In this document: positions 4,593 through 57,572 of the stretch, in pieces
Layout of the letters: every line of letters begins with the position of its first letter
How positions within the stretch are numbered: the stretch's first letter is position 1
Source: Alphaproteobacteria bacterium
Lineage (GTDB): Bacteria > Pseudomonadota > Alphaproteobacteria > Micavibrionales > UBA2020
Length of the DNA: 64,000 bases
Reading direction: 5' to 3'
Assembly: GCA_016794125.1 (NCBI GenBank)
Contig: JAEUKT010000004.1
Location: forward strand, 383,460 to 447,459
Position numbers and translations under genes: made by a program
The notes under the pieces: model-generated
The model's input: only the letters and a program-made list of their open reading frames with translations
Database searches by the model: none
Told to the model about the DNA's origin: nothing

Positions 4593-8822
<4,230 letters not shown>

Positions 8823-8850
8823 CCGCAGCCACTAACGGCTATAAAGATTT

Positions 8851-8887
8851 CCCCCGCGCGGTTTATTCCGGCGGGGGTTTTCTTTTT
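8851..8887 (+). terminator. Intrinsic terminator of the rpoBC operon
   Basis: CCCCCGC (8851-8857) pairs with GCGGGGG (8871-8877), followed by TTTTCTTTTT. This canonical GC-rich stem plus U-tract lies between the rpoC stop and the ribosome-binding site of the next gene. Confidence 0.92.
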
Positions 8888-8910
8888 AGATAATTATAAG
8901 GAGATTACCG

Positions 8911-9312
8911 ATGCGTTTTATTCTGATTGCGTGTGTTTTCTTTGTGATACCAACCATCGCCGTGTCGGAAACGCTGAAAATGACCGCCCCGCAGGAGGGG
9001 AAGGCGTTGGGCAATCTGGAACGCCGCAAGTCGAACACAGCGCCCGCGACCATAGAGGAATTGTTCACCCCGAAACCCGCCGCAAAAAAGCCGCCGGCGG
9101 CAAAGCCGGATGCTGCTGTCATCCTGCGGGATATCGATGCAAAGCTGGACGGCTTGCAGCAGCAAATCGATAAGCTGAACGGGCTTCAAGGCGTGCCGGA
9201 CGAAAAACTTCTGGCGCTTATCGACCGCATGAATACGTTGTCATCCTTGCTGGCTTCCATGCAGCAAAAAACCGCCGTCACGGATGACGGCGGCGCGGAT
9301 ATCAAGGAATAA
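8911..9312 (+). CDS. Small secreted coiled-coil protein, unknown function
   Basis: This 133-residue protein has a clear signal peptide (MRFILIACVFFVIPTIAVSE), a low-complexity Lys/Ala/Pro linker (about residues 48-66, PKPAAKKPPAAKP), then a helical heptad-like segment (ILRDIDAKLDGLQQQIDKLN) predicted to form a coiled coil. AAGGAG precedes the ATG by about 8 bases, supporting the start. It is separated from rpoC by a terminator and runs head-on into the diguanylate cyclase gene, with only three bases between the two stop codons. I do not recognise the family. A periplasmic structural or scaffold role is possible but unproven. Confidence 0.8.
   Translation: MRFILIACVFFVIPTIAVSETLKMTAPQEGKALGNLERRKSNTAPATIEELFTPKPAAKKPPAAKPDAAVILRDIDAKLDGLQQQIDKLNGLQGVPDEKLLALIDRMNTLSSLLASMQQKTAVTDDGGADIKE
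9266..9293 (-). terminator. Terminator for the diguanylate cyclase gene, inside the convergent gene
   Basis: CCGCCGTCA (9272-9280) and TGACGGCGG (9285-9293) form a perfect 9-bp stem with a 4-base loop. Six A residues precede it on the plus strand (9266-9271). Read on the minus strand this is a GC-rich hairpin followed by TTTTTT, a canonical intrinsic terminator located 23 bases past the stop of the minus-strand gene and within the coding sequence of the plus-strand gene. Confidence 0.8.
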
Positions 9313-9315
9313 CGG

Positions 9316-10611
9316 TCAGACTGGCACTTCGCCCGGCGGCGGGGTGATGGGTGCTGCTGCCGGTGCATCGGCCAGCACGACCATGATCGCGCAGTTGCGG
9401 CCTTTTTCCTTGGCTTCGTATAGGCACTCATCGGCGCGGATCAGCAGTGTATCCAGCGAAACCGGCTTGTGCGCCGTGACGGCGGCGATACCGAAGCTGG
9501 AGGTAAATTTCAACAGCTGCTGCTTATCCTGTTTATCGACATAGGGGCAGGGGGTGTTCGCGACGCTTTCGCGGAAGCGGTTGATAATGGCGAGCGCCTT
9601 TTCGGGCTCTGTCTGCGGCAGCATGATCACGAATTCCTCGCCGCCGAAGCGGCCGATCACGTCATAACCGCGCAGCGAATTGGTCATCAGCTTGGCGTAA
9701 TGCTTCAGTACAAGGTCGCCCACCTTGTGGCCATAGGTGTCGTTGACCGATTTGAATTTGTCGAGGTCGCACAGCACGACCGCAAAAGGCTTGCCGGTGC
9801 GGCTAAAACGCGAAATTTCGGCATTTGCCATCTGCATCACGGCGCGGCGGTTTTTCAGGCCGGTCAGTTCGTCTTCCAGCGCCAGCCGGATCAGCTCCTT
9901 GCTGTAGGCCGACAGGCGCAGGACCAGCGGGCGGAAAATATAAAACGCCTCCAGCATCAATACGGACAGCACGATAATCGCGGTGAAATACTGCAAACGG
10001 TGCGACCATGCGATCTGCGCGGTCACGTTTTCGTGATACTGCTCGATCGCCTGATCGAGGTTGATGGAAAAAGTCTTGGAAACCGTGCGCGTCAGGTTGC
10101 TGAATTCGTCGCCGAATTCCTCGAACTTGTCGGTGCTGCGGTAGCTGGCAAAATCCTCCGCCGACCGCACGAATTCATCCATGCGCGTGTCCAGCAGGAA
10201 AGGCTTGTCGGCGAACATCGCGTTCACGTCGGGGTCGTTATAGGATTTCAGCTGCGCACGCTGGTCCTTCAGCCGTTTCAGGGTATCAGCCAGCATCCGC
10301 CCGTCAAACGGCTTGCCCGATGATTTATATGATGACGCATTCGAGACGCCGATATCGATCAGCGAACGCATTGTCGTCATGCCAAAGGTGATTTCGGCGT
10401 CTTCTTTCTGTTTCGATGTTGTGTAGGAAACGACCAGATGCCCCGCAATGGTCAGCGCAGCGATAATCGCGAAGGCGCAGACATATGCGCGTGTGAGTGA
10501 CAGATGCGGATTATCGGGCGAGATATCGATCAGGCGCGACTGATACCCTTTCAGCCTGTCCTGCATCACCGTTACCGGTTTTTTCTTCGGAGTTGGCTTG
10601 CCCTCTGCCAT
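9316..10611 (-). CDS. Membrane-anchored GGDEF diguanylate cyclase
   Basis: This 431-residue protein should make cyclic di-GMP from two GTP at the inner membrane. Two membrane segments (about residues 43-62 and 208-226) flank a roughly 145-residue helical periplasmic sensor region with no recognised domain. The C-terminal GGDEF domain begins near residue 247 (DELTGLKNRRA) and contains the active-site motif GGEEF at 323-327. RGYD at 314-317, exactly five residues before GGEEF, is an intact inhibitory (I) site, predicting product inhibition. No EAL domain is fused. Downstream it meets the secreted-protein gene tail to tail. The periplasmic part suggests control by an external or envelope signal, but the ligand cannot be read from sequence. 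Confidence 0.95.
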   Translation of the reverse strand: MAEGKPTPKKKPVTVMQDRLKGYQSRLIDISPDNPHLSLTRAYVCAFAIIAALTIAGHLVVSYTTSKQKEDAEITFGMTTMRSLIDIGVSNASSYKSSGKPFDGRMLADTLKRLKDQRAQLKSYNDPDVNAMFADKPFLLDTRMDEFVRSAEDFASYRSTDKFEEFGDEFSNLTRTVSKTFSINLDQAIEQYHENVTAQIAWSHRLQYFTAIIVLSVLMLEAFYIFRPLVLRLSAYSKELIRLALEDELTGLKNRRAVMQMANAEISRFSRTGKPFAVVLCDLDKFKSVNDTYGHKVGDLVLKHYAKLMTNSLRGYDVIGRFGGEEFVIMLPQTEPEKALAIINRFRESVANTPCPYVDKQDKQQLLKFTSSFGIAAVTAHKPVSLDTLLIRADECLYEAKEKGRNCAIMVVLADAPAAAPITPPPGEVPV

Positions 10612-10713
10612 TACGATGAAAATCTTTCTGGAAAAACAAACTCTAATAACCTTGAGACATTATATACAGCAGCCAGAGCAGCGTAAAAGCATGAAATCGC
10701 TGGAATGTTCCAT

Positions 10714-10737
10714 AAACGCCGAAACCGGCGGGCGTTT
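10714..10737 (-). terminator. Possible terminator hairpin after the AhpD-like gene
   Basis: AAACGCC (10714-10720) pairs with GGCGTTT (10731-10737) about 40 bases past the stop of the minus-strand AhpD-like gene. The T-run is better on the plus strand (GGCGTTTTTT), so for the minus-strand transcript the terminator is only moderate. It could act in either direction. Confidence 0.4.
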
Positions 10738-10776
10738 TTTACGCGCCAGCCGGTTTCTGTCGTCAATCAGGTGTTC

Positions 10777-11358
10777 TTACGCAGCGACATCCTTGCGGAT
10801 CTCGGTGTTGCGCTCGTCAAAACGCTGGCCTTCAAACTGCTTGTCGAGGGGCGCTTTGACGATGTGGTTGATGTAGTTGCCCATCATGCCGAGCGATAGG
10901 ATGGAAACGACTTCAAGGATATGGGCATGGGTGTAGCCAGCCTTGATCATCGCGTCGATATCCGACTGTTCGGGGCGACCCATGCGCTTTAGCACGGATT
11001 TGGTGAACAGGTGCAGCTGCTCGAGCTTGACATCCTTCAGCGGCTTGTCGTTGCGCAGCGCTTCGATGACTTCTTTCGCAACGCCGTCTTTTTCACCCAT
11101 GACGGAACATGCCGCCATGCAATAGCCGCTGTTGTTCAGGTAGCTGGTGGTGAGCGACACGATGTGGCGCTCCACCGGCGAAAGCAGGCCGGTTTCGACG
11201 GTGGTTTTCAGGCCCAGCCATGCGCGCAGCACCATCGGCGATTCAGCGATCGCGCCGTAGACGTTCGGCAGGAAGCCAAGACGCGCGACAAGTTCTTTCA
11301 GGAACGGACGCGACTGTTCGGGAGCGGTTTCTGCGGTATGGATTTTGAAAGAAGTCAT
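10777..11358 (-). CDS. AhpD-like / carboxymuconolactone decarboxylase-fold protein with altered active site
   Basis: The 193-residue protein matches the alkylhydroperoxidase-related branch of the AhpD fold, as in GLLSPVERHIVSLTTSYLNN and the C-terminal VLEVVSILSLGMMGNYINHI helix. The family normally carries C-x-Y-C-x3-H. Here the segment S77-G-Y-C80-M-A-A-C84 has Ser in place of the first Cys and Cys in place of the His, so two cysteines remain but three residues apart. The start at 11358 (MTSFK) is chosen because GGAG lies 8 bases upstream; a longer frame to 11406 lacks such a site. Redox or peroxidase activity is plausible but cannot be assumed with this substitution pattern. It lies on the same strand as the next upstream gene but behind a terminator. 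Confidence 0.85.
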   Translation of the reverse strand: MTSFKIHTAETAPEQSRPFLKELVARLGFLPNVYGAIAESPMVLRAWLGLKTTVETGLLSPVERHIVSLTTSYLNNSGYCMAACSVMGEKDGVAKEVIEALRNDKPLKDVKLEQLHLFTKSVLKRMGRPEQSDIDAMIKAGYTHAHILEVVSILSLGMMGNYINHIVKAPLDKQFEGQRFDERNTEIRKDVAA

Positions 11359-11540
11359 GGATGAACTCCGTTTGTTGGGTTGAAATTTTTTAATCGTTTT
11401 TTGCAAGTGAGGAGAGTATGCCCGTGCGCGGTTAAGTTCCGGTTAATTGCGGAAAAACGCGGGCTTTGCAACGCCTTCAACGGCGTTGTTGGCCATGTGG
11501 CGATACGAATCTTTTGAATAAGCGCGATGTAAATGACAGG

Positions 11541-57193: not shown

Positions 57194-57470
57194 TTTCAAC
57201 CTTTCAGCCGGGGGTACGGTTTTGGTACGTAGCCGGCAGTTTTTTCATGCGGTAGTTTTGGTACGTGCGGTCTTTCAAAAAGTAACTAACAAATTAGCCA
57301 AAAAATTCAATCGTTTAAAGTGCGGCTATCGGTGTCTGGCTGTTAAACAATATGCAATATAGATGCCGGAAAATCCAGCATCCGAGGGTCACTCTTTGTT
57401 GCAGCGTGTTACAGGGGAATGAAGTTTTAAATCAGGGGGTTATGCGCATCCTGAAATTCGTCTGCAACGA
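57194..57470. other. Upstream region of the DUF3108 gene
   Basis: No gene is visible between the DUF3108 start and the double-hairpin element. The direct repeats at 57219-57267 and an AT-rich patch (57290-57330) that could hold a minus-strand promoter (TTGAAT, 16 bases, TAGTTA) are the only signals. Confidence 0.5.
57219..57267. promoter_or_regulatory. 12-base direct repeat upstream of the DUF3108 gene
   Basis: GTTTTGGTACGT occurs at 57219-57230 and again at 57256-57267, start to start 37 bases (about 3.5 helical turns). Both lie 26-75 bases before the minus-strand start codon, which is the place for an operator or activator site. Confidence 0.4.
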
Positions 57471-57472
57471 TG

Positions 57473-57554
57473 CCCTCTCCCCAACCCTCTCCCTCTGGGA
57501 GAGGGGGCGGGAAAGAAAATCCCCTCCCCCTCTGGGGGAGGGCTAGGGAGAGGG
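57473..57554. repeat. Second double-hairpin intergenic repeat (C/T-rich family)
   Basis: Outer arms starting CCCTCTCC (57473) and ending GGGAGAGGG (57554) are imperfect reverse complements over about 20 bases. Inside lie two perfect hairpins: CTCTCCC-TCT-GGGAGAG (57487-57503) and CCCTCCCCC-TCT-GGGGGAGGG (57522-57542). The architecture equals the glmU-glmS element, but the sequence family differs and resembles C/T-rich repeats seen between genes in many proteobacteria. Confidence 0.7.
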
Positions 57555-57572
57555 CCGCGCGCCAGCGCGGTT

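Follow-up and report, generated by a model that had tools for sequence, protein, structure and literature searches.

A probable one-directional intrinsic terminator of a diguanylate cyclase gene, spelled within the final codons of its convergent neighbour

Convergent genes can be separated by bidirectional terminators, a recognised class reported for Zymomonas mobilis (PMC7566282) and Bacillus cereus (PMC5381666). The available portion of the B. cereus report also describes three cases of a terminator predicted to lie within the second of two convergent genes; these were excluded by its authors. Overlapping 3' ends and excludons are likewise well described in the available parts of the literature (PMC7821165, PMC7154746, PMC9239193), and convergent transcripts that overlap at their 3' ends are reported in the accessible text on Rickettsia (PMC3027695). 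The locus presented here lies in a 64,000-nucleotide stretch (the window) of contig JAEUKT010000004.1 from an alphaproteobacterium of the order Micavibrionales (assembly GCA_016794125.1), and it shares elements with each of these systems as far as they are described in those portions. As in B. cereus, the predicted terminator of one convergent gene lies inside the other gene; unlike the excluded B. cereus cases (PMC5381666), the embedding here was measured, together with a codon constraint and a local rate. As in the bidirectional terminators, a GC-rich hairpin and a U tract stand where the convergent genes meet, with an A run on one side, but here the T run is found on the minus strand only and the hairpin lies in coding sequence. 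As in excludons and other 3' overlaps, the convergent transcripts would overlap at their 3' ends, but the overlap set by this terminator, if it works, would be only about 47 nt, a figure that follows from the geometry. The arrangement is thus a compact layout of a familiar kind and not a new mechanism; what is new is an example with a measured local frequency.

The two genes and their flanking features are listed in Table 1.

Table 1. Features of the convergent gene pair and its surroundings, in window coordinates
Feature	Position	Strand	Basis or remarks
rpoC intrinsic terminator, bulged stem	8851..8887 (stem 8851-8877, tail 8878-8887)	+	just upstream of the 133-aa gene
133-aa gene hosting the hairpin in its final codons	8911..9312	+	ORF; dN/dS and a frame-keeping indel in the comparison with G004 indicate coding
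Predicted intrinsic terminator of the cyclase gene	9266..9294	-	stem 9294-9285/9280-9271, loop 9284-9281, T tract 9271-9266
GGDEF diguanylate cyclase gene, 431 aa, GGEEF motif	9316..10611	-	Pfam 2.2e-45; TIGR00254 6.3e-50
Likely cyclase promoter (TTTACG, 17 nt, TATAAT)	10659..10687	-	pattern scan
Nearest plus-strand terminator-like hairpin (dG <= -8) past the 133-aa gene	10725..10753	+	hairpin finder

The protein encoded on the plus strand has an N terminus that resembles a signal peptide as judged by eye, and no family in Pfam or NCBIfam was matched. Comparison with G004, the relative used throughout, gives 20, 12 and 42 differences at codon positions 1, 2 and 3 across 133 codons, and the sole indel in the coding part is of three bases. 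Because dN/dS is 0.23 (NG86) to 0.30 (YN00) and this indel keeps the frame, the ORF is, on this comparison, a real gene. Its start was placed at 8911 in one run of our home-made gene caller and at 8962 in another. The rpoC terminator ends 23 bases ahead of the ATG, where a good ribosome-binding site is present; in the 8823-8910 region of G004 the terminator stem and the GGAG stretch are kept and the bases separating them are not. Since this leaves scant room for a promoter, the 133-aa gene may depend on read-through from the rpoBC operon. An Rfam search of 8400-11500 at E <= 1 returned nothing above threshold, and an anti-hemB match at 8777-8885 was rejected as sub-threshold (18.3 bits against a gathering score of 49.5). 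The facing cyclase gene looks like a single-gene transcription unit. Both hexamers of its likely promoter are identical in G004, and the spacer differs in part. Upstream of this promoter, the stretch 10715-10760, flanked by the cyclase gene on one side and a carboxymuconolactone-decarboxylase-like gene on the other, is a strong hairpin region with fold energies of -27 to -29 kcal/mol for the two strands (z -4.8 on plus, -3.9 on minus).

The initial annotation had described a perfect 9-bp stem with a four-base loop and a six-T tail on the minus strand, and all three elements were seen when the sequence was read directly. The minus strand reads GCCGCCGTCA-TCCG-TGACGGCGGT followed by TTTTT, and plus-strand positions 9266-9271 are AAAAAA, the complement of the six T. 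The perfect arms occupy 9272-9280 and 9285-9293, and a basal G-U pair at 9294/9271 extends the stem, so that one of the six T can be counted as part of it. The features expected of an intrinsic terminator are present in the sequence: a GC-rich hairpin in what would be the nascent RNA (-18.0 kcal/mol by our hairpin finder; -18.8 kcal/mol, z -3.2, with 1 of 200 shuffles equal, in a minus-strand fold of 9262-9300), a U tract right after it, and a position 21 bases past the stop of the gene on the same strand. The location given earlier was confirmed as well. The hairpin falls within the final 47 bases of the convergent gene, the plus-strand stop ends at 9312 with three bases before the minus-strand stop, and the codons over 9268-9294 read K-T-A-V-T-D-D-G-G. 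As for the annotation's central claim, that this is the terminator of the cyclase gene, form, strand and distance are as expected and conservation in one relative is mostly in favour. Its further suggestion, that the convergent transcripts could influence one another, found no support in this analysis.

The same bases fold almost as well on the plus strand (-17.1 kcal/mol, z -3.0), and in G004 the plus-strand fold is slightly the better of the two, as would be expected if the hairpin acted in the plus-strand mRNA, for example by stabilising its 3' end or in some role in translation, and the minus-strand T tract were incidental. We consider this very improbable: the hairpin lies within translated codons, ahead of the stop, and an A run before it with no T run after it fits a minus-strand terminator. 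A bidirectional terminator was rejected on similar grounds, as the plus strand has no T run and reads GCGCGGATAT past the stem; for the same reason plus-strand transcripts should not end there.

By number alone, terminator-like patterns do not clearly exceed chance in this DNA (32 in the first 20 kb of the window against 25.4 +/- 5.2 in shuffles), and the case therefore rests on the quality and position of this site, which ranks third by number of pairs among the 32. Its background rate was measured in its own genome from the window together with 40 stretches of 20 kb (864 kb, 27% of the genome), where a home-made hexamer model called 846 genes at 88% coding. Both strands were scanned for a hairpin followed by a T tract with a finder that allows no bulges and so misses, for example, the rpoC terminator. 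Strict terminators (no mismatch, dG <= -14, and five or more T among the first 6 bases, or the equivalent where a T stands at the stem end) numbered 64, with 58 intergenic and six in genes, five of these antisense and one sense. Two of the six, the present site and L068:6509-6535, belong to tight convergent pairs and sit at a gene's 3' end. Convergent pairs numbered 132, 78 of them tight (gap of 30 or less); in the 54 wider pairs a hairpin was found in the gap in 28 at dG <= -9 and in 23 at dG <= -16.

A hairpin counted as embedded if it fell within the final 80 nt of one gene and was oriented so as to terminate the facing, convergent gene. At dG <= -16, 3 of the 78 tight pairs carry one, where the rate in gene interiors predicts 0.22 (Poisson P 0.0015); at dG <= -12 there are 4 against 0.70 expected, and at dG <= -9 there are 5 against 2.38. 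Leaving out the window case gives 2 of 77 (P about 0.02, calculated by hand), which is the fairer count because that case was picked as striking. The embedded terminator thus exceeds chance. Antisense hairpins are also concentrated towards gene 3' ends more generally: among the antisense matches at dG <= -12, 11 of 51 lie within 60 nt of a gene 3' end and 1 of 51 within 60 nt of a 5' end, with 3.4 expected in each case. With the limit at dG <= -14, 6 of 27 fall within that distance of a 3' end; three of them (L058, L075 and L054) have no convergent neighbour, so part of the clustering has another cause. Elsewhere in the window, two terminator-like hairpins, one per strand, occur at 57521-57570 near the end of a weakly coding plus-strand ORF (57406-57546), which is either a further embedded case or a false gene.

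These counts bear on the simplest alternative, that the hairpin is a chance product of GC-rich codons (Ala, Val, Thr, Asp, Gly) following the A run of a Gln-Lys pair, with the cyclase mRNA ending elsewhere, by Rho or without a fixed site. Antisense hairpins at dG <= -12 do arise in gene interiors (39 in the 864 kb), most tight convergent pairs in the sample have no embedded terminator visible to the finder, and Rho is present in the genome (PF07497, 6.0e-36), so the cyclase gene could manage without the hairpin. Against chance stand the intergenic location of nearly all strict terminators and the placement of this one just past the cyclase stop. The codons themselves were examined by recoding the last 30 codons of the 133-aa gene with random synonymous codons drawn by genome usage. 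An equally strong minus-strand terminator appeared in 24 of 5000 trials, and dG <= -12 was reached in 231 of 5000, as chance would allow; the C-terminal peptide favours such a hairpin, yet the codons in use remain out of the ordinary. Applied to the weaker hairpin of G004, this test gave 105 of 5000; for L068 it gave 1, and for a third case, L049, none of 5000.

The gene pair has a narrow distribution. The 133-aa gene was found in 2 of 55 relatives, namely this genome and G004, and its protein was matched in 5 of 142 genomes of the order including these two, the other three matches being weak (E 0.002 to 0.01, 31-40% identity over part of the protein). G004, 89% identical over 2 kb, is the sole relative that keeps the pair with readable sequence; in G003 the contig ends within the cyclase gene. 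The initial annotation had named conservation of the stem in close relatives as a check, and in G004 the stem is kept, but with one uncompensated mismatch at 9278 and five T. A G-C pair replaces the basal G-U there, the finder gives dG -14.3, and the minus-strand fold is -16.4 kcal/mol (z -1.2, 22 of 200 shuffles equal) against -17.9 on the plus strand. This imperfect stem, in which both substitutions alter amino acids, is in keeping with a chance origin. The other proposed check, on third codon positions, came out in favour of a constraint: none of 10 is changed over 9265-9294 against 42 of 123 elsewhere (Fisher P 0.03, in the comparison with G004), and no longer stretch of the gene is free of third-position changes than the 12 codons that begin at 9265. 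These frozen third positions, and the parallel at L068 with its conserved arms, argue against chance, which on balance is unlikely.

Ten further relatives of the cyclase (37-51% identical) have other neighbours, and their facing ORFs are mechanical calls. Among the resulting 11 cyclase loci, taken from a set of 30, the embedded hairpin is found only in G004. An intergenic terminator stands right after the cyclase stop in L006 (dG -14.2) and L007 (dG -18.0), where the facing ORFs are about 80 nt off; L006 has an additional, weaker hairpin with one mismatch (-11.5) deeper within the facing ORF. In 8 of the 10, the interval from 60 bases ahead of the stop to 300 bases past it yielded no hairpin at dG <= -8, and several of these have a tight facing ORF, which suggests that the cyclase gene family can do without such a signal.

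L068:6509-6535 is a second clean embedded terminator of the same genome, with a longer stem (dG -22.8). In G004 both of its arms and its T tract are the same (dG -23.4), and the loop carries one indel and one substitution. Because these loop changes shift the reading frame, the C terminus of the host protein is rewritten from ...PSGPAEPK to ...PKGTGGT, a pattern expected if selection acted on the terminator rather than on the peptide. Eight loci in relatives were compared for this pair. G002, which belongs to the genus but is less closely related, has a tight pair (9 bases), and no hairpin at dG <= -8 was found there; the terminator is intergenic in G009 and G006 (L081, L082), a hairpin is present with no facing ORF in L083, and none was found in L084 and L085. 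The third case, L049:1349-1384, is kept in G004 and G003 (dG -20.4 and -19.5), but it proves less because its stem is mismatched, its T tract is interrupted and its conserved Lys/Pro-rich peptide could explain the conservation.

Taken at about 85% probability, our preferred reading from the sequence is that the hairpin ends the cyclase mRNA as an intrinsic terminator acting in one direction, and that its bases serve at the same time as codons. The cyclase unit would run from its promoter (about 10687-10659) through its coding region to an RNA 3' end at about 9264-9270. A polymerase on the minus strand would pass the cyclase stop, the GC-rich hairpin would form in the new RNA, and the U tract would bring about release. 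As the stops are three bases apart there is no intergenic space, and the signal would therefore be written into the last codons of the convergent gene, whose tail tolerates change. The terminator might in addition take part in an excludon-like overlap, in which plus-strand transcripts of the 133-aa gene would extend through the cyclase gene in antisense and lower its expression, the cyclase mRNA being cut short. No plus-strand hairpin at dG <= -8 was found between 9312 and 10725, where one weak 5-pair site occurs at 9387-9400, so plus-strand transcripts may cross the cyclase gene and could end at the hairpin beyond it (Table 1). Regulatory overlapping 3' ends are described for other bacteria in the available parts of PMC7821165 and PMC7154746. 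On the other side, there is no known functional link between the 133-aa gene and the cyclase, the former was found in only 2 of 55 relatives, Rho-dependent termination of plus-strand transcripts is possible, and bulged stems such as that of the rpoC terminator escape the finder. Such a regulatory role of the overlap is quite unlikely at this locus.

Returning to the one-directional terminator, a broader and more tentative reading, to which we give somewhat less than even odds, is that some tight convergent pairs of this lineage, a minority, maintain a dedicated terminator within the partner gene, where the hairpin outranks the protein and largely spells its C-terminal peptide. The intact L068 arms beside a rewritten C terminus, and the frozen third positions of the window pair, are the observations that point this way. 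At the present locus, one DNA stretch serves as codons on one strand and very likely as a terminator on the other, an arrangement found in 3 of the 78 tight pairs sampled. Terminator surveys restricted to intergenic DNA would miss such embedded sites, and the C-terminal residues of the genes that host them should not be over-read as protein function.
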